Made by a program: the position numbers and the translations under genes. The notes beneath the pieces were generated by a model. The model was not told where the DNA came from. It did no database searches and saw only the letters and a list, made by a program, of their open reading frames with translations. 64,000 nt of DNA from Puniceibacterium sediminis (GTDB taxonomy: Bacteria; Pseudomonadota; Alphaproteobacteria; Rhodobacterales; Rhodobacteraceae), in the NCBI RefSeq assembly GCF_900188035.1, contig NZ_FZNN01000012.1, positions 1-64,000 of the forward strand, read 5' to 3'. This document shows, one piece after another, positions 33,731 to 48,298 of this stretch (position 1 is its first letter; the number at the start of each line of letters is the position of its first letter).

Positions 33731-36409
33731 TTACGCAGGCACGACAAAGTTCCTGGGCAGCTCGACCCTGAATGCCGCCCCGCTGCGCCCCGGCAGATAA
33801 GTGATATGACCACCCAGCCGGGTCATGATCTGTCGGCTGATGGCCAGCCCTAGGCCCGCACCGCCCGCCTGTCGGTCGCTGACACGCGCGAATTTTTCAA
33901 AAATCATGTCCTGCGCTTCGGCGCTGATGCCACTGCCGTTGTCAATAAAATCGATCACCAGCAGGCCTTTCTCTTCGCTCACCCGAATCTCCAGTTCCGG
34001 CACGTCGGCGTCGCAATATTTACGGGCATTGGCGATAAGATTGATAAAGACCTGACTGAGGCGGTCCAGATCGGTGTTCAGCATCACCTGCTCTGCGCGT
34101 ACGTCCCGGCGGATGCGCAGGTCGTGCCCGCCGTCATTGGCTGCAGCGGCCGCCCGATCAAGAAGATCGGAAAGCAGACCTTGACGCAGGTTCAGATTCA
34201 CCTGCCCATTTTCGAGCACGCTAAGATCGAGCAGATCGTCCAGCAGTCGAGTCAGCCGGATCGCCTCGTCATGGATGATCGACGCATATTTATTCTGCTC
34301 CGACGCCGTCAGCCCGCTGGTGTCGCGCAGAATCTCTGAAAATGCCCGGATTGAGGTCATAGGCGTGCGTAGTTCATGACTGATCTGGCTGAGGAAGGCA
34401 TCCTTTTGCACCGAAAGCCGGGTCAGTTTCTGATTCGCCTCACGTAACTGGCGGGCTGTCCGGCTTAGTTCGTTCGACTGCGTCTCAAGCCGGGAAGAAT
34501 ATTCCATCAGCTGGGCGCTTTCGTCTGCCACCGCCATCAGGTCTTCGACCGAGACGGACATGCCGCCGACAATCTGCCCGACCATCGCATGGGCAGTCGC
34601 GGCCCCGACCGAACCCGAAAGTTCCTTCTCCAGTGTCTCGAGGAAATCCGGGCTGGGATCTGGGAGCATGCCCCTTGCGCCCTGCCTGCGTGCCTCGCGT
34701 TCGAACAGCGCCTGCGCCTCTGGCGCACCAAGAATGCGCTGCGCCATGATCATCAGATCTTCTGCCTGCGCCACGCCGCCGGACCAACTGCGCGGCCCCC
34801 CCGAATGGTCAAAGACATTGACGAACTGCGCGCCCTGCAACCGTTCCAGCGGCGAGGGAAAACTGGCCAGCGAAAAGGTGATGAACGCAATGACGTTGAA
34901 CGCAATGCTCCACAGGAACGCGTGCAACAGCGGGTCAAGTCCCGAGATCCCGAACAGGGCCTGCGGGCGCAGCCAGGCCAGGCCGAACAACCCCTGGGTC
35001 ATGATCATATCGGAGAGGGCGCCGTTGCCGATGCTGGGCAGGAACAGCGTATAGAGCCAGATGGCAAAGCCAATGATCAGCCCTGCCAACGCGCCCACCC
35101 GGGTTGCCCCGCGCCAGAAAATGCCGCCCAGCATTGCGGGTAGCACCTGCGCCACCCCGGCAAAGGAAACAAGTCCGATGGTCGCCAGCGCGGTTCCCCC
35201 GCCCGAGAGCGAATAATATATGTAACCAAGCGTGACGACCCCCGCGATCGACAACCGCCGGGACAACAGCACCACATGGCGCACGTCGCCCGACACGCTG
35301 GCGCCGTTGCCGGTCAGGCGCAGGAAGATCGGCATGACGATATGGTTCGACACCATTGTCGACAGCGCAATCGCCGCAACGATCACCATCGACGTGGCTG
35401 AACTGAAGCCGCCCAGGAACGACAGCACCGCCAGCCCCTCTTGTCCGGTTGCAAGCGGCACCGTCAGAACAAAGAGGTCAGGGTTTGATCCGGCGGGCAG
35501 CAGATCAAGCCCGACCACGGCGATCGGCACGACAAACAGGCTCATCAGCATGAGGTAGAGCGGAAAGGCCCAGCTTGCTGTGCGCAGATGGCCTTCATCA
35601 TCGCTTTCGACCACCAGCACCTGAAACATGCGCGGCAGACACAGGAACGCGGCAGCCGAAAGCAGAGTCAGCCCGGCCCAGCGGCCGCCATTCATCTGCC
35701 AGTGCCCCAGTTCCGATGCGTCGATGCGGTCCAACGTCTGCGCCACCCCGCCGGACAGGCCCCAGACGACAAAGATTCCGACGGCCATCAAAGCGGCCAA
35801 TTTCACCACCGCCTCAACCGCGATGGCCATGACAACACCGTGGTGGCGTTCGTTGGCATCCAGGTTCCGGGTGCCGAAGATCACGGTAAAGATCGCAAGA
35901 CCAAAAGCGACCCAAAGCGCGGTATAGCTTCGCGCGCCTTCCTCGGGGGATGGCACCCCCGGCTGGGCGAAAACCTCAAAGCTGAGCGTGACCGACTGCA
36001 ATTGCAGCGCAATATAGGGTGTCGTCCCGATCACGGCGAGGACAGTGACGCAGATCGCCAGCAGGTTCGATTTGCCATATCGCGAAGACACAAGGTCAGC
36101 GACCGATGTGATCCGTTGACTGCGCCCGATCCGCACCAGCTTGCGCAGCACCCACCACCATCCCACCATCACGATGCTGGGACCAAGGTAGATCGTGAGG
36201 TATTCAAACCCCGACCGTGCCGCTGACCCAACCGCGCCATAGAATGTCCAGGCCGTGCAGTAGATCGACAGGGAAAGCGTGTAGACCAGCGGCGCCTTGA
36301 GCCATCTCACCTGCCCCCGCAGCGCAGAACGTTCGGCGACAAAGGCCACGGAAAACAGAAAGACCACATAGGTCAGGCAAACCGCAACCAGCGCGTTAAG
36401 CGTGATCAT
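33731..36409 (-). CDS. Na+/solute symporter fused to a histidine kinase (CbrA-like)
   Basis: 892 residues. Residues 1-~560 form a sodium:solute symporter (SSF/PutP) domain with about thirteen helices. A linker with a coiled coil ('MEYSSRLETQSNELSRTARQLREANQKLTRLS') leads to HisKA with phospho-acceptor His678 in 'SQISHELRTPMTS', then HATPase ('NLIANARKY', 'DNGSGI' near 824, 'GAGLGLAI'). There is no receiver domain. CbrA-type proteins sense or move a carbon source and phosphorylate a partner regulator. The partner here is probably the single-domain regulator at 36693. All three genes overlap by ATGA junctions, so they form one translationally coupled operon. The neighbourhood (ScfR regulator, Acs) suggests that acetate or a related short-chain acid is the signal. 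Confidence 0.9.
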   Translation of the reverse strand: MITLNALVAVCLTYVVFLFSVAFVAERSALRGQVRWLKAPLVYTLSLSIYCTAWTFYGAVGSAARSGFEYLTIYLGPSIVMVGWWWVLRKLVRIGRSQRITSVADLVSSRYGKSNLLAICVTVLAVIGTTPYIALQLQSVTLSFEVFAQPGVPSPEEGARSYTALWVAFGLAIFTVIFGTRNLDANERHHGVVMAIAVEAVVKLAALMAVGIFVVWGLSGGVAQTLDRIDASELGHWQMNGGRWAGLTLLSAAAFLCLPRMFQVLVVESDDEGHLRTASWAFPLYLMLMSLFVVPIAVVGLDLLPAGSNPDLFVLTVPLATGQEGLAVLSFLGGFSSATSMVIVAAIALSTMVSNHIVMPIFLRLTGNGASVSGDVRHVVLLSRRLSIAGVVTLGYIYYSLSGGGTALATIGLVSFAGVAQVLPAMLGGIFWRGATRVGALAGLIIGFAIWLYTLFLPSIGNGALSDMIMTQGLFGLAWLRPQALFGISGLDPLLHAFLWSIAFNVIAFITFSLASFPSPLERLQGAQFVNVFDHSGGPRSWSGGVAQAEDLMIMAQRILGAPEAQALFEREARRQGARGMLPDPSPDFLETLEKELSGSVGAATAHAMVGQIVGGMSVSVEDLMAVADESAQLMEYSSRLETQSNELSRTARQLREANQKLTRLSVQKDAFLSQISHELRTPMTSIRAFSEILRDTSGLTASEQNKYASIIHDEAIRLTRLLDDLLDLSVLENGQVNLNLRQGLLSDLLDRAAAAANDGGHDLRIRRDVRAEQVMLNTDLDRLSQVFINLIANARKYCDADVPELEIRVSEEKGLLVIDFIDNGSGISAEAQDMIFEKFARVSDRQAGGAGLGLAISRQIMTRLGGHITYLPGRSGAAFRVELPRNFVVPA

Positions 36410-36696
36410 CCCCCCGCCCCTGGCTCATCCCCGCCCAGACGCAGCCGCAGCGACACGACAAAGGCCGCCAGAATCAGCGCCATCCAGACGCCAAAGATGT
36501 AGATCAGCGCGCCTGAACTCGACACGGTCTCTTCGTCTCCAATGCTCCAGAGCAGCGGCACCGACCAGAGAAGCAGCCCCAGCACAGGCAGGAAACGGGC
36601 GGCATCCATCAGGCGCCTGAGCCGATAGGATTGCCGCTGCAGGAATAGCGGCGATCTGGGCCGATCCGGAGTCAGGTCACGGGCAGGCTCGATCAT
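36406..36696 (-). CDS. Small membrane protein between kinase and regulator genes
   Basis: 96 residues with two transmembrane helices (about 32-52 and 62-86) and an arginine-rich N-terminus ('RSPLFLQRQSYRLRRLMDAARFLP'). It overlaps the response regulator upstream and the symporter-kinase downstream by ATGA junctions, so equal expression is expected. The position recalls the small DUF4212-type subunits found next to acetate symporters, but the sequence does not clearly match them. I infer an accessory subunit of the symporter-kinase. Confidence 0.7.
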   Translation of the reverse strand: MIEPARDLTPDRPRSPLFLQRQSYRLRRLMDAARFLPVLGLLLWSVPLLWSIGDEETVSSSGALIYIFGVWMALILAAFVVSLRLRLGGDEPGAGG

Positions 36697-37076
36697 GTGG
36701 CTCCGCCGACCGGTGCCACAAGAGCGTGAACCGCGTCGAGCACTTCGGCATTGCTGAAAGGTTTTGTCATGAAGTGGCTAACACCGGCGCGTTCGGCCAG
36801 CTCACGGTCCTTGGTCTGGCCCCGCGCGGTCAGCATCAGGATCGGCAAGCCAGCAGTTTCCGGGAGTTCGCGTAATTCGCGCAGGATGTCATAGCCGCTC
36901 TTGCCGGGCAGCATCACGTCAAGGATCACCACGTCGGGCTTGCGTTCCAGCACCGCCTCGACCGCGGTGAGCCCGTTGGAATGTGTCTTGACCGTCCATC
37001 CGTCGCGTAAAAGAATAAAACTGATAGCCTCAATGATATTGGGCTCATCCTCGATCACAAGGACCTGCTTGGCCAT
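36693..37076 (-). CDS. Single-domain response regulator (CheY-like)
   Basis: 127 residues, receiver only: 'IEDEPN' acidic pocket, phospho-acceptor Asp in 'DVVILDVMLPGKSGYDIL' (about residue 52), Thr in 'LMLTARG', Lys in 'FMTKPFS'. It has no DNA-binding domain, so its output must be protein-protein. First gene of the RR/membrane protein/symporter-kinase operon; GGGAGA precedes the ATG. It may feed phosphate to a downstream phosphotransfer protein, or bind the kinase or another regulator such as the ScfR protein upstream. Confidence 0.88.
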   Translation of the reverse strand: MAKQVLVIEDEPNIIEAISFILLRDGWTVKTHSNGLTAVEAVLERKPDVVILDVMLPGKSGYDILRELRELPETAGLPILMLTARGQTKDRELAERAGVSHFMTKPFSNAEVLDAVHALVAPVGGAT

Positions 37077-37163
37077 TCTCGTTTCTCCCCCCTGATGGCA
37101 TCGCGCAACTTTGTGTCGTCTTTTTGATGCCTGTGTTCTTTATCGCCTTTGCGCTGCCACCTG

Positions 37164-38477
37164 TCAAAAGCCGATCTGCCCCCGCCCACTCAAAATCGAC
37201 GGCTCGCGGCGGGCATCGCACCCTGTACGCGGACAGATCCGACAGGTTGTGCCGACCGGCAGCGACTGATCTGACTCGGATCCCGTCTGTGGCACGATCA
37301 GCATATGGGACTGGAACAGTGGTTCCCGATTCACCTGTGCGGGGCCTGTCGGCGAGGCTATGGCAAAGGTGCGGAAGATGTGTGCCGGTTGGCCGGGCTG
37401 TTCGACGGTCTGGCCCAGCAGCATCATCGGGCGGCTCAGCGCCTGATAAAGCGGCCAGAGCGGACAGCCGGCACCGAACCGGGGCATGGCGAAATTCCTG
37501 AGCGGCTTGCGGTAAGTCAGGCTGCCCGAAGCATCGCAGATCGCCAGGCCGACCGGTTCGGGCAACACATCAGACGGCAGGCTGGCAAGACGACGCATGG
37601 CAAGACCGGTATCCACTTCGCAACGCTGTGCCAAAGCTATGGGATCGGCGCCAGTTTCCGCGACCACATCCGATAGAACCGACAACGGCAGTTTTGCGGC
37701 ATCTGCGGCATAGCGGACGAAACTGCGCAGAAGCATGGCGCGTGCCGGTTCGGACCTACCGGAGCCAAGATGTTCGGCCACCTCTGCAGGCGTGCCTTCG
37801 CCGGTTTCAAGCTCGGCTATGTGATGATCCGCGGCATCGAAAATCGCATCTACCTCTTCCTGAGGCACGCTGGGGTCCGACGATGTATCCTCCGCCGCCT
37901 CAAGATAACTCACCAAGGATCGGCTCGTGTCGGCCAGACGGGCGGAATCCTCGTAGATGTTGCGGTGAAAGCGTTCCTGCCACTCTGGATCAATCTCACC
38001 CGGTTCAGCCAGAATGGATGCGGCAGAGCGGATCGCAGTCACAGTCGTAAGCATTTCATGCAGTGATGCGGCAAGGTGGGGATCGTGCGTCATGCGGTCG
38101 GTCAGGGCTTCGACAGTGCGTTCCAGAGTGGCCATGCGTTGTCGGCTATCCGCCAGCAGGTATGCCCAGCCGGGAAACCGCCCAGCGAATTCCTCCGCAC
38201 GGTCCAGTTCCGCCGCCTTGCCACGTGGGTCTGATGCCGCCTCGCGCAGGGCCGCGATCAGTGTCGCCTCGGCCCCCTCAGTCAGCAAAGAGGGTTCGAC
38301 ATCAAGAATGCCCGCCAGATCAAGCAGCAACTTTCCGCCGATTCTGCGCCGGTTGTGTTCGATGAGATTCAGATAAGAAGCTGAAATCGCCACGCGGCGT
38401 GCCAGATCGACCTGCTTGATGCCTGCGATGATCCGCCTCTCTCTGATCCTGCTACCGGTTAGGGTGTCCCGCCCCAT
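37164..38477 (-). CDS. ScfR-type transcriptional regulator (XRE HTH plus short-chain acyl-CoA domain)
   Basis: 437 residues. The N-terminal XRE helix-turn-helix (about 5-62) reads 'RIRERRIIAGIKQVDLARRVAISASYLNLIEHNRRRIGGKLL'. The C-terminal domain (about 300-437) is the short-chain fatty acyl-CoA regulator type (PF09856/DUF2083), with a cysteine cluster 'GTTCRICPRTGCDARREP' that may bind metal. Relatives such as RamB and PccR control acetate, propionate and glyoxylate-cycle genes in response to acyl-CoA. I use the ATG at 38477 (AAGGA upstream) rather than 38513. Divergent from the ABC importer operon that ends in acetyl-CoA synthetase, which makes that operon its likely target. Confidence 0.85.
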   Translation of the reverse strand: MGRDTLTGSRIRERRIIAGIKQVDLARRVAISASYLNLIEHNRRRIGGKLLLDLAGILDVEPSLLTEGAEATLIAALREAASDPRGKAAELDRAEEFAGRFPGWAYLLADSRQRMATLERTVEALTDRMTHDPHLAASLHEMLTTVTAIRSAASILAEPGEIDPEWQERFHRNIYEDSARLADTSRSLVSYLEAAEDTSSDPSVPQEEVDAIFDAADHHIAELETGEGTPAEVAEHLGSGRSEPARAMLLRSFVRYAADAAKLPLSVLSDVVAETGADPIALAQRCEVDTGLAMRRLASLPSDVLPEPVGLAICDASGSLTYRKPLRNFAMPRFGAGCPLWPLYQALSRPMMLLGQTVEQPGQPAHIFRTFAIASPTGPAQVNREPLFQSHMLIVPQTGSESDQSLPVGTTCRICPRTGCDARREPSILSGRGQIGF

Positions 38478-38528
38478 TGGGGAAATCCTTTCGCTATCAA
38501 CGTCTTTCTGCACTGCGACATAAAAATC

Positions 38529-38568: not shown

Positions 38569-38699
38569 ATTTCTGATGCTTTCAAAGCAGTTGTTGCGAA
38601 ATTTTCGAACTTACCCGCATACTGAATTTGCACGTAACGGTGCACGCGTCTGTGGGAAGAGGAGCCTGCATTCGCATTTCACCAAATGGGAGGATGCTA

Positions 38700-40064
38700 A
38701 TGTCCAAAATGAATCTGACACGTCGTGGCGTGATCAAGACCGGCGCTGTCGCCGGCGCAGGGCTCGCTCTGCCGACCTATCTTTCGGCGGCTGCACATTC
38801 GGGTTACACCAACGCCCCAACGGGCGATACTGTCACGCTTGGCTTCAACGTTCCGCAGTCCGGCCCCTATGCCGACGAAGGTGCGGACGAGCTGCGCGCA
38901 TTCGAACTCGCTGTCGAGCACCTGAATGGTGAAGGCGACGGCGGCATGCTGTCGACCTTTTCCTCGAAGGCACTCGACGGCACCGGTATCCTGGGCAAGA
39001 AGGTCACATTTGTGACCGGCGACACCCAGACCAAGTCGGACGCGGCCCGTGCATCGGCCAAGTCGATGATCGAAAAAGACGGCGCCATCATGATTTCCGG
39101 CGGCTCGTCCTCGGGCGTGGCTGTTGCTGTGCAGGGTCTCTGCCAGGAAGCGGGCGTCGTGTTCATGGCGGGTCTGACCCACTCGAACGACACCACAGGC
39201 AAGGACAAGAAGGCGAACGGTTTCCGTCACTTCTTCAACGCCTACATGTCGGCAGCGGCGCTCGCGCCAGTGCTCAAGAACCTCTACGGTGCTGATCGTG
39301 CGGCCTACCACCTGACCGCCGACTACACCTGGGGCTGGACACAGCAGGAATCGATCCAGGCCGCGACCGAAGCGCTTGGCTGGAGAACGGTCAACAACGT
39401 TCTGACGCCGCTGGCAGCAACGGACTTCTCGTCCTACATCACGCCGGTACTGAACTCGGGCGCAGATGTTCTGGTCCTGAACCACTACGGCGGAAACATG
39501 GTGAACTCGCTCACCAACGCTGTTCAGTTCGGCCTACGCGACAAGCAGGTAAACGGCAAGAACTTCGAAATCGTCGTTCCGCTCTACTCCGAGCTGATGG
39601 CGAAGGGTGCCGGTGCCAACATCAAGGGCATCGTCGGCTCGCAGAACTGGGACTGGAAGCTCGAAAACCAGATGGGCGCCAAGTACACGGGCACCAACGC
39701 CTTTGTGCAGTCCTTCGGCAACAAGTACGGCTTCCCGCCGTCCCAGGCCGCCCAGACATGCTATGCGCAGACGCTGCTTTATGCGGATGCCGCGGCACGT
39801 GCCGGCACGTTCAACCCCTGCGCCATCGGCGAAGCCCTTGCAGGCTTTGAATTCGACGGTCTGGGCAACGGTCCGACCCTGTATCGTGCCGACGATCACC
39901 AGTGCTTCAAGGACGTGCTGGTCGTGAAGGGCGCAGAGAACCCCGAGGACGAATTCCACCTGGTGGAAATCGTCGAGGTCACACCGACCGAGCAGGTCAC
40001 CTATGACCCCAACCACCCCATGTTTGCTGGTGGTGCTCTGGGCGCCTGCAACCCGGGCGCATAA
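38700..40064 (+). CDS. Branched-chain-amino-acid-type ABC substrate-binding protein (Tat-exported)
   Basis: 454 residues. The N-terminus carries a twin-arginine signal 'LTRRGVIKTGAVAGAGLALPTY', so the protein is exported folded. The mature chain is a two-lobe periplasmic binding protein of the HAAT/LivJ/AmiC type ('VTLGFNVPQSGPYADEGADELRAFELAVEHLN', 'GAIMISGGSSSGVAVAVQGLCQEAGVVFMAGLTH'). Start at 38700 has GGGAGG at the right distance. First gene of the importer operon; two strong hairpins follow before the permeases, as is usual when the binding protein must be made in excess. The ligand is not evident. The linkage to acetyl-CoA synthetase suggests a short-chain carboxylate, amide or amino acid that yields acetate. 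Confidence 0.88.
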   Translation: MSKMNLTRRGVIKTGAVAGAGLALPTYLSAAAHSGYTNAPTGDTVTLGFNVPQSGPYADEGADELRAFELAVEHLNGEGDGGMLSTFSSKALDGTGILGKKVTFVTGDTQTKSDAARASAKSMIEKDGAIMISGGSSSGVAVAVQGLCQEAGVVFMAGLTHSNDTTGKDKKANGFRHFFNAYMSAAALAPVLKNLYGADRAAYHLTADYTWGWTQQESIQAATEALGWRTVNNVLTPLAATDFSSYITPVLNSGADVLVLNHYGGNMVNSLTNAVQFGLRDKQVNGKNFEIVVPLYSELMAKGAGANIKGIVGSQNWDWKLENQMGAKYTGTNAFVQSFGNKYGFPPSQAAQTCYAQTLLYADAAARAGTFNPCAIGEALAGFEFDGLGNGPTLYRADDHQCFKDVLVVKGAENPEDEFHLVEIVEVTPTEQVTYDPNHPMFAGGALGACNPGA

Positions 40065-40077
40065 GCTACTTGCCTCT

Positions 40078-40106
40078 AACCGGCCGCGCCCCCCGCGCGA
40101 CCGGTT
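40078..40106 (+). terminator. Attenuator hairpin after the binding-protein gene (first)
   Basis: 12-bp arms AACCGGCCGCGC / GCGCGACCGGTT (one mismatch) around a 5-base C-loop, followed by TT. Likely partial terminator or mRNA-stabilising hairpin. Confidence 0.6.
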
Positions 40107-40111
40107 TATCT

Positions 40112-40139
40112 GCACCCTGCCCGCAATCGGGCGGGGTGC
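40112..40139 (+). terminator. Attenuator hairpin after the binding-protein gene (second)
   Basis: 12-bp arms GCACCCTGCCCG / CGGGCGGGGTGC (one G-U pair) with a 4-base CAAT loop, directly after the first hairpin and 35 bases before the permease start. Confidence 0.6.
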
Positions 40140-40174
40140 TTCCCCACATAACAATCGCATAAAAGGGTGGGACC

Positions 40175-41206
40175 ATGGACGCCATCATTCTGCAAATCCT
40201 GAACGGCCTCGACAAGGGTTCGGCCTATGCGCTGATCGCGCTGGGTCTGACACTGATATTCGGTACGCTCGGCGTGGTGAACTTTGCCCACGGCGCGCTG
40301 TTCATGATCGGATCGTTCTGCGCCGTTACCGTGCAGCGGATCCTGTCGGTCAGTTTCAAAACTGTCGATCCCAGCAAGACAGATTTTCTTGGTAACCCGT
40401 CGACCTATGACACACCCTACGTGGTGCACTGGTTCGGGCCCGAGTTTGGTGCCGGGATCATCGACTGGTCCGTACCACTGGCCATCCTGTTCGCCATCCC
40501 CATCATGATCGCCATCGGTTTCATCATGGAACGCGGGCTGATCAAGCATTTCTACAAGCGTCCCCACGCGGACCAGATCCTTGTGACCTTTGGCCTGGCC
40601 ATCGTGCTTCAGGAAGTCATCAAGTATTACTACGGTGCCAATCCGATCCAGACCGGCGCGCCTGAGGTGTTCCGTGGTTCGTTCGATTTCGGCGTGCTGT
40701 TGGGCTTTGATCCCAATGTGATCATCTATCCTTACTGGCGCCTCGTGTATTTTGCCTTTGCCGCCGTGATCATCAGCGCAGTCTTCGCCTTCCTGCAGTT
40801 CACCACCTTCGGGATGGTGGTCCGCGCCGGCATGGCCGACCGCGAGACAGTGGGTCTGCTGGGCATCAATATCGACAAACGGTTCACCATCATGTTCGGC
40901 CTTGCCGCGGCTGTCGCGGGCCTGGCGGGCGTCATGTACGCACCGATCAACGCGCCAAACTATCATATGGGTATGGATTTCCTCGTTCTCAGTTTCGTGG
41001 TGGTCGTCGTCGGAGGCATGGGATCGCTTCCCGGTGCCGTTCTGGCCGGCTTCCTGCTGGGAATTCTGGAATCCTTTGCCTCGATGACCCAGGTCATCGA
41101 CCTGATCCCCGGTATCAATCAGATCATCATCTATGTCGTCGCGATCATCGTATTGCTGACCCGCCCCCGTGGCCTGATGGGCCGCAAAGGCGTGATGGAG
41201 GAGTAA
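40175..41206 (+). CDS. LivH-type ABC permease
   Basis: 343 residues, inner membrane, about eight helices. LivH family features: 'LNGLDKGSAYALIALGLTLIFGTLGVVNFAHGALFMIGSF' at the N-terminus and the conserved 'GVMYAPINAPNYHMGMDFLVLSFVVVVVGGMGSLPGAVLAGFLLGILE' near the C-terminus. It contains a 40-residue insertion after helix 1 ('SFKTVDPSKTDFLGNPSTYDTPYVVHWFGPEFG') not seen in E. coli LivH, probably a periplasmic loop. GGGTGG precedes the ATG. Forms the transmembrane core with the LivM-type protein 3 bases downstream. Confidence 0.9.
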   Translation: MDAIILQILNGLDKGSAYALIALGLTLIFGTLGVVNFAHGALFMIGSFCAVTVQRILSVSFKTVDPSKTDFLGNPSTYDTPYVVHWFGPEFGAGIIDWSVPLAILFAIPIMIAIGFIMERGLIKHFYKRPHADQILVTFGLAIVLQEVIKYYYGANPIQTGAPEVFRGSFDFGVLLGFDPNVIIYPYWRLVYFAFAAVIISAVFAFLQFTTFGMVVRAGMADRETVGLLGINIDKRFTIMFGLAAAVAGLAGVMYAPINAPNYHMGMDFLVLSFVVVVVGGMGSLPGAVLAGFLLGILESFASMTQVIDLIPGINQIIIYVVAIIVLLTRPRGLMGRKGVMEE

Positions 41207-41209
41207 ACA

Positions 41210-42412
41210 ATGTTCGGACTCGAGAAAAAAGACGCGACCCTTCTGCTGATCGTGGCCGTGCTGACCATGTGCGCGCCGTTTATCCTGAACCCCTTCCCCA
41301 GCGACTCGGGGCTCGCGCAGTTCAACGCGGGCTACCCGGATCTTATGCAGCGGTTCGTGATCTTCGGGATCTTCGCCATCGGCTTCAATATCCTGTTTGG
41401 CCTGACCGGCTACCTTTCATTCGGTCACGCCGCCTTTCTGGGGGTGGGTTCCTACTCTGCCGTCTGGATGTTCAAGCTGCTCAGCATGAACGTGATCCCG
41501 GCAATCCTCCTCTCGGTCATTGTCGCGGGGGCCTTTGCCCTGATCATCGGCTTTGTCAGCCTGCGCCGGTCGGGAATCTACTTCTCGATCCTCACGCTGG
41601 CCTTCGCGCAGATGTCCTTTGCCCTGGCCTATTCGGTGCTGACGCCGATCACCAACGGCGAAACCGGCCTGCAACTGTCGCTGAACGATCCGCGCATTCT
41701 GGGCACCTCAATCTCGGCTGATGGCGGGATCCCCGTGACCCAGCTTTTCGGGATCGAGATGCGGTCGACTTACGCAATGGACGTCGGTCCGTGGCTGTTC
41801 CAGTTCAACGCGGGCTACTATCTTTGTGCCATCCTGCTGCTGCTGGCATTTTACCTCTCCATCCGCATCTTTCGCTCGCCCTTTGGCCTGATGTTGCGGG
41901 CGGTGAAATCCAACCAGCAACGGATGAACTACACTGGTCTGAATGCGCGCCCCTACACGCTGGCAGCCTTCGTGATCTCGGGTATGTATGCCGGTCTCGC
42001 CGGTGGCCTCCTCGCCTCTATGGACCCTCTGGCCGGTGCCGAGCGTATGCAGTGGACCGCATCCGGCGAAGTTGTCCTGATGACCATTCTGGGTGGTGCA
42101 GGCACGCTGATCGGCCCGGTTCTGGGTGCAGGCTTCATCAAGTACTTTGAAAACATCTTCTCCAAGATCAACGACAACGTCCTGCACCAGTGGTTTGCCT
42201 TCATGCCTGACGGGCTCGAAGACTTCATGGTGACCATCGTCCACCCCTTTGTGGGCAAGGGCTGGTCGCTGACGCTGGGCCTGATGTTCATGGCGGTGGT
42301 GATTTTCCTGCCCGGCGGCCTTGTCGAAGGTGGTCAGAAGATCGGCAAACTGTTCCGCCGCAAGAAGGCTGCTGAGGATACGTCCCCAGCCGCCAAGACA
42401 CCCGCAGAATAA
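41210..42412 (+). CDS. LivM-type ABC permease
   Basis: 400 residues with about ten helices. The LivM signature is clear: '[33 protein letters not shown]', '[26 protein letters not shown]', and '[32 protein letters not shown]'. The C-terminus is a short lysine/alanine tail. GGAG, formed by the end of the preceding gene, serves as ribosome binding site, so translation is coupled. It pairs with the LivH-type permease. Confidence 0.9.
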
Positions 42413-42423
42413 GGAGGCACGTC

Positions 42424-43179
42424 ATGGGCATTCTCGAAGTCAAAGACGTCAACAAACGCTTCGGCGGCCTCCAGGCCCTCGGCAACGTCAATCTCTCGGT
42501 CGCGGACAACACCGTGCACGCCATCATCGGCCCGAACGGCGCGGGCAAATCCACCCTGCTCAATTGTCTTGTGGGCAAGCTGATCCCCGACACCGGGTCG
42601 GTCATGTTCGCAGGGCAGTCCGTGCTGGGGCGCAAACCGTTCGAAATCAACCAGATGGGCATCAGCCGCGTGTTTCAGACGCCTGAGATCTTTGGCGATC
42701 TGACGGTGATGGAAAACATGATGATCCCCTGCCTTGCCAAGCGCGACGGATCGTTCCGGATGCACGCCATCGAATCGGTTCTCGACGAAAAGGCGCTGCG
42801 TGAAAAGGCCGAGTCCATGCTCGAAGAGGTCAAGATGCTGGACAAGCGCAACATGCATGCAGCATCCATGTCGCGCGGTGATAAGCGGCGCCTGGAAATG
42901 GCTATGTGTCTGGTCCAGGAACCGCGCCTTTTGCTACTGGACGAACCCACAGCCGGCATGGCGCGGGCCGATACCAACAACACCATCGACCTGCTCAAGG
43001 AAATCAAGGCGCGCGGCAACATCACGATGTGCATTATCGAACACGACATGCATGTGGTGTTTTCGCTTGCCGACCGGATCACCGTTCTGGCGCAGGGCAC
43101 CCCCCTGGTCGAGGACACGCCGGAAAACATCAAGGGCCACCCCAAGGTACGCGAAGCGTATCTGGGCGAGTCGGCCTGA
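42424..43179 (+). CDS. LivG-type ABC ATPase
   Basis: 251 residues. Walker A 'GPNGAGKST' near 37-45, ABC signature region 'MSRGDKRRLEMAM' (the family form of LSGGQ), Walker B 'LLLLDEPTAGMA', and H-loop 'IEHDM'. The length is typical of LivG. AGGAGG precedes the ATG, 11 bases after the LivM-type gene. Forms a heterodimer with the LivF-type ATPase downstream and drives uptake. Confidence 0.92.
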   Translation: MGILEVKDVNKRFGGLQALGNVNLSVADNTVHAIIGPNGAGKSTLLNCLVGKLIPDTGSVMFAGQSVLGRKPFEINQMGISRVFQTPEIFGDLTVMENMMIPCLAKRDGSFRMHAIESVLDEKALREKAESMLEEVKMLDKRNMHAASMSRGDKRRLEMAMCLVQEPRLLLLDEPTAGMARADTNNTIDLLKEIKARGNITMCIIEHDMHVVFSLADRITVLAQGTPLVEDTPENIKGHPKVREAYLGESA

Positions 43180-43195
43180 ACAGGAGGGCAATCAG

Positions 43196-43951
43196 ATGAA
43201 CGTCAAACCAGACTTCTCAAAGCACGCCAACCATGCGGAAACCGCCCCGGCATTCCTGTCGGTCTGGGACATCCACGCCTACTACGGTGAAAGCTATATC
43301 GTGCAGGGTGTGTCCTTCAACGTGCACGAAGGCGAGATCCTCGCTCTGCTTGGCCGCAACGGTGCCGGCAAGACCACGACCCTGCGATCCATCGCGCGTC
43401 TGGCCAATCCGCAGGTGAACAAGGGCGAAATCTGGCTCGATCACCAGCCCCTGCACAGGATGAGTTCCTATCAGGCGTCGATGGCGGGCCTTGGCCTTGT
43501 CCCCGAAGACCGCCGCATCATCCCCGGCCTCACGGTCGAAGAGAACCTGCAGCTGGCCCAGATCGCCCCGCCCATTGGCTGGTCGCTGGAACGTCTTTAC
43601 GAACTATTTCCCCGCCTTGGCGAGCGGCGCAAACAGGAAGGCGTGACCCTGTCGGGCGGCGAACAGCAGATGCTGGCCATCGCCCGGGCGCTCGCGCGGG
43701 ACATCAAGGTGCTGCTGCTGGACGAACCCTACGAAGGACTTGCTCCGGTTATCGTGGACGAGATCGAAAAGACCCTGCGCATCGTCAAGGAGCAGGGCAT
43801 GACCACGATCATCGTTGAACAGAACGCCGTGCGGGCGCTGCAATTGGCTGACCGGGCCGTGATCCTGGACACCGGGTCGATCGTATTCGACGGAACCGCG
43901 TCCGAAGTACTTGAAAACGAACAGCTTCGCGCGGAATACCTCGCGATCTGA
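43196..43951 (+). CDS. LivF-type ABC ATPase
   Basis: 251 residues. Walker A 'GRNGAGKTT', signature '[15 protein letters not shown]', Walker B '[13 protein letters not shown]', H-loop region 'IIVEQN' (Gln/Asn form common in LivF). It has an N-terminal extension of about 20 residues compared with E. coli LivF. The ATG at 43196 follows AGGAGG; the frame is open far upstream, but that part only overlaps the LivG-type gene. Last gene of the importer; a hairpin separates it from acetyl-CoA synthetase. Confidence 0.92.
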
Positions 43952-43960
43952 ACTGATAAC

Positions 43961-44010
43961 CGGCCCCCTGTACGACCAAAGCAGTCTTGCAAACGGGGGC
44001 CGGGCCGTTT
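43961..44010 (+). terminator. Hairpin between importer and acsA
   Basis: CGGCCCCC (43961-43968) pairs with GGGGGCCG (43995-44002), followed shortly by GTTTT at 44007-44010. Probable partial terminator that uncouples acsA from the importer. Confidence 0.45.
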
Positions 44011-44039
44011 TCCCTGCCCCCAAATTGGAGGAGCCTAAA

Positions 44040-45989
<1,950 letters not shown>

Positions 45990-45993
45990 GGCG

Positions 45994-46680
45994 TTGGATG
46001 GTACAGTGACGCCCGTGGGTGCCCCGGTTCTGATTCTGCTTGGGCCGCCCGGGGCGGGCAAAGGCACGCAAGCCCGTATGCTGGAAGAAAAATTCGGCAT
46101 GGTCCAGCTGTCGACCGGCGACCTACTGCGCGCCGCCGTCAAGGCAGGCACCGAGGCTGGCAGACAGGCGAAGGCCGTCATGGACGCGGGCGGGCTGGTG
46201 AGTGATGACATCGTCATTGCGATCCTGCGCGACCGGCTTGATGCGCCGGACACCTTACAGGGCGTTATTCTCGACGGCTTTCCTCGAAACACACCTCAGG
46301 CCGAGGCGCTGGATCTTCTGTTGGCCGAACGTGAGCAGAAGATCGACGCGGCCATCAGCCTTGAGGTCGACGACGCGGAAATGGTCACACGTATCTCTGG
46401 CAGATACACCTGCGCGGAATGTGGCGAAGGGTATCATGACCAATTCAAAATCCCGCAAAAGCCAGGCGTCTGCGATGCCTGCGGCGGCACCGACATGACG
46501 CGCCGTGCCGATGACAATGCCGAAACCGTGGGCAGCCGACTGCAGGCCTATCACGAGCAGACCGCCCCACTGGCACGTTATTACCGTGCCAGAGGCGCAT
46601 TGCACTGCATTCCTGCCATGGACGGGATCGACGATGTCGCGGCCCGGCTTCATGCGATTGTGACCTCGACCCGAGCGTAA
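45994..46680 (+). CDS. adk: Adenylate kinase with zinc-type lid, second-copy candidate
   Basis: 228 residues. It interconverts ATP + AMP and 2 ADP. P-loop 'GPPGAGKGT' (about 14-22), 'STGDLLRAAV' NMP site, 'DGFPRN', and a long-form lid with a four-cysteine zinc site 'TCAECGEGYHDQFKIPQKPGVCDACGG'. Translation appears to start at TTG 45994, with a strong GGAGGTGA five to six bases upstream and only 4 bases after the acsA stop; GTG codons follow as alternatives. Placed directly after an AMP-forming synthetase, it probably recycles the AMP that Acs releases. The housekeeping adk of these bacteria usually sits with ribosomal protein genes, so this is likely a paralogue. Confidence 0.92.
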   Translation: MDGTVTPVGAPVLILLGPPGAGKGTQARMLEEKFGMVQLSTGDLLRAAVKAGTEAGRQAKAVMDAGGLVSDDIVIAILRDRLDAPDTLQGVILDGFPRNTPQAEALDLLLAEREQKIDAAISLEVDDAEMVTRISGRYTCAECGEGYHDQFKIPQKPGVCDACGGTDMTRRADDNAETVGSRLQAYHEQTAPLARYYRARGALHCIPAMDGIDDVAARLHAIVTSTRA

Positions 46681-46993
46681 CAAAAGCCCCGTAGCGGGCC
46701 AAATGTCGGCAAGCGCACCGAAATTTCTTCGGAGCGTTTCGCTGCCATTTTTGAAATTGAGCGTTCCGTGCGCCTTGCGCAAGATGGCCGGAGCGCCCAA
46801 AAAACGATGCAGATCAGGGACAACGCAGTAATTACTGCATGAGCTTGAACCCTCGCGGTGCATCAGGCATGGACGCCGAGCCGCAAAATGCGCAGATTTG
46901 AAACAATGAGTATCGCCTGTTGAAGGGCAAGGTATCCGAATGAGAGGGAATTGACGTGCTTGCGCACCTGACAGGCATGAGGAAATCCGAGTT
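46681..46993. other. Intergenic region, no gene seen
   Basis: 313 bases between adk and the exonuclease-like gene. A weak CCCG-TAG-CGGG hairpin lies just after the adk stop (46,688-46,699). I see no conserved RNA or further coding sequence. Confidence 0.4.
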
Positions 46994-48298
46994 ATGATCG
47001 AGCGCAATGGCTTCCGTTTCCGGGTTTTCCGAGTGTTTGCAGTTCTTGCCCTTACGCTGGTGGGTGGGTTGCAGGCCGCGCTGTGGATTGGCAGCAGACG
47101 AACCCTGGACATCGGATCCGAGGCCGGATTCGCCTTGGTGGGGGTTGCCGGGACCGGGCTGATCCTTGTGCTTTGCGTCGCGGCCTGGCTCTATTTTGAT
47201 GAGCGGATTGCAAAGCCGTTGGAACGGCGGGCCTTTGCACCGGTCACGACGGATGTCCGCCCCACACTCAGCCAAGAAGACATCGCCCTGCAGGACGCGC
47301 GCCGCATGGCCCGTGCCATGGCCCTCCTGGAATCGGACAAGGCCCAACTGATCAGGCTGATCAGCGAAATTCCCGGCGCGATACTTGTGATCAACACTGC
47401 GGATCAGATCGTGCTTTATGACAGTCAGGCAGCAGATCTTCTCGCCCGACTGGGTGTGCCACGTCTGAACGCCCCGCTCGGTGACTATTTAGAGGCCACC
47501 GGCCTGTCGGCTGCGCGATCCAAGATGCAGCGCACCGGGCTAGAGGTGCGCTTCACAGCGAGTGCCATCCATTCTCCTGACAGCCTCAGCGTACGCCTGC
47601 GTCCTCTCGACAATGGCAATGCGCTGGTCATTTTTCAGGAAACAGAAGCCTCCGGGGGGGCTACCTTGCCCGGCCCTCTTGTCTATGACTTTGCGCTGAT
47701 GGCTCCGCGAAACGGGCAGGACATCGACTCTATGTCCCTGAACGCGCTGACATATTTGGTCCTTTCGACAGAAACGACCGGCCTTCTGCCGCACCGCGAC
47801 AATATCGTGAAGATCGGCGCCGTCCGAATGGTCGGCTCGCGCATCCTGCGGCGGGAAACTTTGGAACTGCGGATCGACCCAGCATCTAAAAACGCGGGCG
47901 AAACATCTGAGGATGGGCGGATGGGCATCCTTGAAGCCAGCGCGGAATTGCACAAATTTGCCCATGATGCGGTGATCGTGGCCCACAACGCCCCACTGCG
48001 CATGGCCTTTCTGCGGCACCATGCGGGTGTGACCTGGGACCATCCACAGATCGATCTGGTGCTGCTATCGGCGCTGCTGTTCGGAGATGGCGCGGATCAC
48101 AGCCTGAGGAGCCTGGCCAGTCGGACGGGTGTCGGCCCGTCCCACGCATTGTCGCGTGGCGGTCTGGCCCAGGCGATTTTGGCTGCAGAAGTGTTGCAGC
48201 GCCTTATGCCGATGCTTGCAGCGCGCGAGTTGGACAGCCTTCGCGAACTGATGGATGCGTTGGACCAACACGCGGACAGTCTGGAAAAATTGCATTGA
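46994..48298 (+). CDS. Membrane PAS protein with catalytically dead DEDDh exonuclease domain
   Basis: 434 residues. Two transmembrane helices (about 13-33 and 49-71), a coiled coil (95-120), a PAS-like domain (about 120-215, 'IPGAILVINTADQIVLYDSQAADLL'), then a DnaQ-like 3'-5' exonuclease fold (about 250-425). The exonuclease motifs are recognisable but stripped: 'DxETTG' is S258-T-E260-TTG, 'HNAxFD' is H331-NAPL-R336, and 'HxAxxD' is H384-ALSR-G389. All three metal-binding aspartates are lost, while the Glu and His remain. Full-length relatives with intact motifs occur near acs/symporter genes in other proteobacteria. I infer a nucleotide- or nucleic-acid-binding signalling role, not nuclease activity. 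Confidence 0.78.
   Translation: MIERNGFRFRVFRVFAVLALTLVGGLQAALWIGSRRTLDIGSEAGFALVGVAGTGLILVLCVAAWLYFDERIAKPLERRAFAPVTTDVRPTLSQEDIALQDARRMARAMALLESDKAQLIRLISEIPGAILVINTADQIVLYDSQAADLLARLGVPRLNAPLGDYLEATGLSAARSKMQRTGLEVRFTASAIHSPDSLSVRLRPLDNGNALVIFQETEASGGATLPGPLVYDFALMAPRNGQDIDSMSLNALTYLVLSTETTGLLPHRDNIVKIGAVRMVGSRILRRETLELRIDPASKNAGETSEDGRMGILEASAELHKFAHDAVIVAHNAPLRMAFLRHHAGVTWDHPQIDLVLLSALLFGDGADHSLRSLASRTGVGPSHALSRGGLAQAILAAEVLQRLMPMLAARELDSLRELMDALDQHADSLEKLH

Follow-up and report, generated by a model that had tools for sequence, protein, structure and literature searches.

In Pseudomonas putida, MxtR/ErdR (CrbS/CrbR) controls one operon for the CBS protein PP_0354 and the RNase_T protein PP_0353; the latter matters for growth on pyruvate, not acetate (PMC9927547). 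Pflu5625, which comprises cNMP, CBS and nucleotidyltransferase domains, belongs to the CrbS/R regulon and its function is not known (PMC5715377). Nucleases without activity are represented by Maelstrom, whose DEDD fold is inactive and binds RNA (PMC4408791), and by Ssd1, an inactive nuclease of the RNase II family (PMC8097288). The protein described here shares its family, its domain architecture and its side of acs-adk with the active membrane PAS-DEDDh exonucleases of the roseobacter acs operon (L040, L038 and L037), to which it is 31-43% identical. Unlike it, these enzymes contain the residues D-E-D-H-D, a substrate-side loop and a longer membrane-PAS linker, and are encoded directly behind a DUF294 gene and a 172-aa gene. 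To our knowledge, no substrate has been described for either the exonucleases or the DUF294-type proteins that belong to CrbS/R (MxtR/ErdR) acetate regulons.

The window (the whole stretch of DNA that was analysed, 64,000 nucleotides) contains a gene at 46994-48298 (+) for a membrane-PAS pseudo-DEDDh exonuclease, identified from the ORF, Pfam, a residue survey and a structural model. Its coordinates and its length (434 codons, 434 aa) were as given in the first-pass annotation. A search of the window's genome at E 0.001 found no other copy. The ORF encodes a predicted membrane hairpin, a probable coiled coil, a putative PAS fold and a DEDDh exonuclease fold lacking its catalytic site. An AlphaFold model was prepared from 53 aligned homologs (mean pLDDT 84). 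Two long hydrophobic helices spanning residues 7-81 (7-40 and 42-81; 47012-47236, +) are predicted to form the membrane hairpin, and a further long helix (residues 94-124; 47273-47365, +) is a probable coiled coil. Residues 129-215 (47378-47638, +) comprise two strands, helices and three strands, the correct order for a PAS fold. Assignment of this unit was based on the strand and helix order in the model; Pfam PAS families gave no matches in the 434-aa protein, and PAS_4 matched in longer homologs. The linker between hairpin and PAS unit is some 20-25 residues shorter than in intact homologs. Both alignments and models placed hairpin, PAS unit and exonuclease domain in one chain.

The degenerate exonuclease domain (residues 250-412; 47741-48229, +) was delimited by Pfam, profile match, model and Foldseek, with the fold itself at residues 253-410 of the model. 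RNase_T was the sole Pfam match, at 24.8 bits and barely over the cut-off of 24, compared with 118 bits for an intact homolog. The closest solved structures, both by profile and by fold (Foldseek), were the proofreading exonucleases PolC and DnaQ (Pol III epsilon; 2p1j, 9qpc, 2gui), which support an RNase H-like fold. Unlike the window protein, these are active, soluble replication proofreaders with a full DEDDh site. The exonuclease fold proposed earlier was confirmed, and the model supported two membrane helices and a PAS-ordered unit. Longer homologs of approximately 700 aa (L021-L030, L051 and L052) have 200-250 more residues separating the PAS from the exonuclease. A by-eye resemblance of this segment to a worn histidine-kinase core was discarded, as Pfam found no kinase remnant there.

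Alignment with intact homologs established that the window protein retains one of the five DEDDh residues and has replacements at the other four (all codons +). In motif I, FDTETTG of the intact homologs becomes LSTETTG, with S258 (47765-47767) in place of the catalytic Asp, and E260 (47771-47773) is the sole catalytic residue retained. In motif II, HNAPFDMAF becomes HNAPLRMAF, with R336 (47999-48001) in place of the catalytic Asp. In motif III, RHTALGDA becomes SRGGLAQA (S387 to the A after Q393). Because R-H-T-A-L-G-D-A aligns with S387-R388-G-G-L-A-Q393-A, R388 (48155-48157) occupies the position of the active-site His and Q393 (48170-48172) that of the catalytic Asp. The HNA and TTGL core is retained.

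The first-pass annotation had described replacement of all three catalytic aspartates, at S258, R336 and G389, with E260, TTG, HNA and H384 kept. Loss of the site, the changes at S258 and R336, and retention of E260, TTG and HNA agreed with the alignment. The count was too low, as the His is also gone, and no catalytic position corresponds to G389, the true Asp site being Q393. H384 is not conserved (three orthologs have Q, A and A there), so the H384/G389 assignment is attributed to a coincidence of spacing. Shifted aspartates that might restore the metal site were also sought, and in none of the four orthologs was an acidic residue found near a lost ligand. The loop IPPAS-VH-DAM of the intact homologs, which in DnaQ-type exonucleases lies on the substrate side of the fold, is missing in 4/4 dead-form orthologs. 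The window protein is predicted to be without exonuclease activity.

A protein search of 397 genomes of the family (approximately one per genus) plus the window's genus itself yielded 99 short-form sequences. Four of these, the only such sequences in the searched sets, carry S-E-R-R-Q (the dead form: window, G001, G002 and G005), and all are in the window's genus, a small group of marine bacteria. The remaining 95/95, approximately one per genus, have D-E-D-H-D, and the catalytic residues were also intact in those longer (~700-aa) forms that were checked. The alignment of orthologs proposed earlier demonstrated that the replacement residues are fixed and identical in the 4/4 members of the clade. 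Since all 95 others keep the five residues and all four share the replacements, these are more than chance. Sequencing or assembly error was rejected as their source, as four genomes agree. The four dead-form proteins are 54-64% identical to one another, and none contains a stop or frameshift. Within the genus, intact short forms were found in G004 and in G005, there as an extra copy on a different contig; G003 is without any exonuclease of the acs-operon PAS-exonuclease family.

In a maximum-likelihood tree the dead clade was recovered with support of 100/100, nested in a 99/99 clade with active forms. The protein is by this placement a member of the active-type family that is without the catalytic motif. 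A position outside all active short forms was rejected (p-AU 0.0024). Joining of the dead clade with the active form of G004, from the same genus, gave a slightly higher likelihood and was not rejected (p-AU 0.53). The stem of the dead clade was 1.72 changes per site, compared with a median tip of 0.34, and was followed by ordinary branches. At equal acs identity, dead-active pairs were 36-39% identical compared with 52-61% for active-active pairs. Dead-dead pairs were 57% identical, only moderately below the 66% of active-active pairs. By these sequence comparisons, the history of the clade is one of a burst of change and then renewed constraint. The dead form of G005 lies beside acs-adk, with an intact operon copy in the same genome (contigs C94 and C87; L035 and L036). 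This intact copy grouped with G053, apart from the window's genus, so it may have been acquired horizontally or may reflect a binning error or contamination.

The gene lies in an acetate locus, as had been noted earlier: a branched-chain amino acid type ABC transporter, acs and a second adk lie 5' of it on the same strand. The acetate--CoA ligase gene acs is at 43911-45989 (+; the first ATG-like start of the ORF may precede the true start), and the second adenylate kinase gene, an adk paralog, is at 45994-46680 (+). The order of active-type loci, with Pfam identities, is acs-adk-DUF4212-SSS symporter-DUF294/CBS/cNMP protein-172-aa protein-exonuclease. The DUF294 gene and the 172-aa gene are directly upstream of the exonuclease in 93/95 active loci; the remaining 2/95 are cut by contig ends, with under 600 bp of upstream sequence. 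PP_0354/PP_0353 likewise pairs an exonuclease with a CBS protein within an acetate-linked regulon; PP_0353 differs from the window protein in that its partner is present and it is treated as a putative active nuclease, the likeness resting on the RNase_T domain (PMC9927547). The product of the 172-aa gene is a conserved protein of 165-190 aa with no Pfam match, found between DUF294 and exonuclease in virtually all active-type loci (L040:8801-9319 and equivalents).

All four dead-form loci have the order acs-adk-exonuclease, and the window gene is not directly downstream of DUF294 and 172-aa genes. The adk-exonuclease gap is 313-365 bp (46681-46993, +, in the window) and occupies the site of the DUF4212, SSS symporter, DUF294 and 172-aa genes of active relatives; remnants of these four genes were sought in the gap and none were found. 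DUF294 and DUF4212 are absent genome-wide from G000, G001 and G002 (three of the four dead-form genomes) and from G003, and both occur in G004 and G005, each with an intact exonuclease. In G003 the acs gene is present (G003:C1:1437458-1439434, L178), and the second adk, DUF4212, DUF294 and PAS-exonuclease are all missing. The first-pass annotation did not include the coincidence of catalytic loss with absence of the four operon partners. Comparison of the four dead-form loci also identified a block, GGCATGGACG-N13-TGCSCA (46866-46894, +), with a promoter-like footprint 99-163 nt before the start codon. It is kept in 4/4 loci, and hardly anything else in the gap aligns. Its conservation makes the block a likely promoter or operator, which fits a gene in use.

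Selection was estimated from a GY94 fit. In the dead clade, the nuclease domain gave an omega of 0.137 and the remainder one of 0.184, rough values because synonymous sites are near saturation, and omega 1 was rejected (2dlnL 208 and 199). These values demonstrate purifying selection after the loss of the site. The corresponding values for active homologs were 0.044 and 0.072, so that omega of the dead-clade nuclease domain is approximately threefold higher and constraint is weaker than before. S258 and R388 were kept through synonymous codon changes. Conserved positions made up 30/46 near the old site and 56/126 elsewhere in the domain (permutation p 0.18), and a reading of the old active site as the domain's best-conserved part was dropped at this p value.

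The explanation we favour, and hold to be probable, is that of a retained pseudonuclease which lost its partners, had its site dismantled and is now a non-catalytic membrane PAS protein in acetate metabolism. The ancestor would have been a membrane-anchored PAS-DEDDh exonuclease, encoded by the last gene of the roseobacter operon acs-adk-DUF4212-symporter-DUF294-(172-aa protein)-exonuclease. In the genus lineage, the four middle genes would have been lost and the catalytic site dismantled (D-E-D-H-D to S-E-R-R-Q), the exonuclease being orphaned on loss of its nucleotidyltransferase and transporter partners. The sequences themselves establish which residues changed, that the changes are fixed in the clade, that it descends from active-type forms, that the operons differ and that purifying selection followed. 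Since the protein is still preserved, it probably has a non-cutting job now; we infer a sensing or docking role. As the least certain step, the former nuclease domain may serve as a docking or binding/ligand surface of the membrane PAS protein, which would probably tune acs/adk-linked acetate metabolism. The coupling of partner loss with catalytic loss is suggested by one clade and one presumed event, which is unreplicated.

Simple decay of an exonuclease made useless by the operon deletion, vanishing and still present in four species, would also account for the loss of partners and of the catalytic site, the approximately threefold rise in omega and the lack of any copy in G003. It is nevertheless unlikely, given four genomes free of stops and frameshifts at only 54-64% protein identity, omega values of 0.14 and 0.18 that are far below 1, identical replacements of which two were maintained through synonymous codon changes, the conserved promoter-like block, and a long stem that gives way to ordinary branches. 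Some remaining hydrolytic activity, with a metal held by E260 and relocated ligands, would fit the retained E260 and fold core, and the abstract of a pseudoenzyme review allows for possible migration of catalytic residues in some such proteins (PMC10211241). With all other ligands replaced, two of them by arginine, and no acidic residue close to a lost ligand in the four orthologs, such activity is hardly credible.

A metal-free cleft that binds RNA, AMP or another phosphate ligand, with the new arginines supplying charge, was also considered. Two arginines in place of metal ligands, the kept HNA and TTGL core, the neighbouring acs and adk, whose products handle AMP, and the precedent of Maelstrom, an inactive DEDD fold binding RNA (PMC4408791), are all compatible with this. 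The substrate-side loop is deleted in 4/4, however, and conservation of the site is not significantly above that of the rest of the domain, which makes a binding cleft improbable. The earlier proposal of a nuclease fold turned into a sensor or nucleotide-binding module holds for the lost metal site, the membrane/PAS tether, the acs neighbourhood and preservation by selection; nucleotide binding is unsupported because of the missing loop, and the sensor-like architecture was inherited, because active relatives have the same PAS/membrane part. A more elaborate scheme pairs the DUF294 nucleotidyltransferase and the PAS-exonuclease as nucleotide-adding and nucleotide-removing enzymes that control acetate or pyruvate metabolism. 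Loss of the adder would have made catalysis needless, and the dead descendant would have been remodelled into a metal-free sensor of ligands, located at the membrane beside acs and adk. We regard this scheme as a long shot.

The retained pseudonuclease is of wider use as a natural experiment. The site is intact in all 95 comparison genomes, and its loss is confined to loci whose operon is missing DUF294, the symporter and two small membrane proteins. This ties an uncharacterised exonuclease to DUF294 and suggests functional dependence. Dead nucleases kept by selection are already known, and the window clade is one more case, a bacterial example of a DEDDh pseudonuclease. Maelstrom and Ssd1 likewise lost the active site and were kept under selection; they differ in being eukaryotic, in having RNA binding shown and in lacking a membrane-PAS context, and the Ssd1 fold is different.

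The branched-chain type ABC transporter (38628-43951, +) precedes acs in dead-form loci, and in L038 its ATPase is likewise found ahead of acs; the transporter might be a stand-in for the lost symporter. Divergent to the transporter-acs cluster, 33731-38513 (-) encodes a histidine kinase whose N-terminus is long and hydrophobic, a protein of 96 aa, a stand-alone receiver-domain protein and a short-chain acyl-CoA regulator of the ScfR/RamB type. The histidine kinase set is possibly a CrbS-like acetate sensor.
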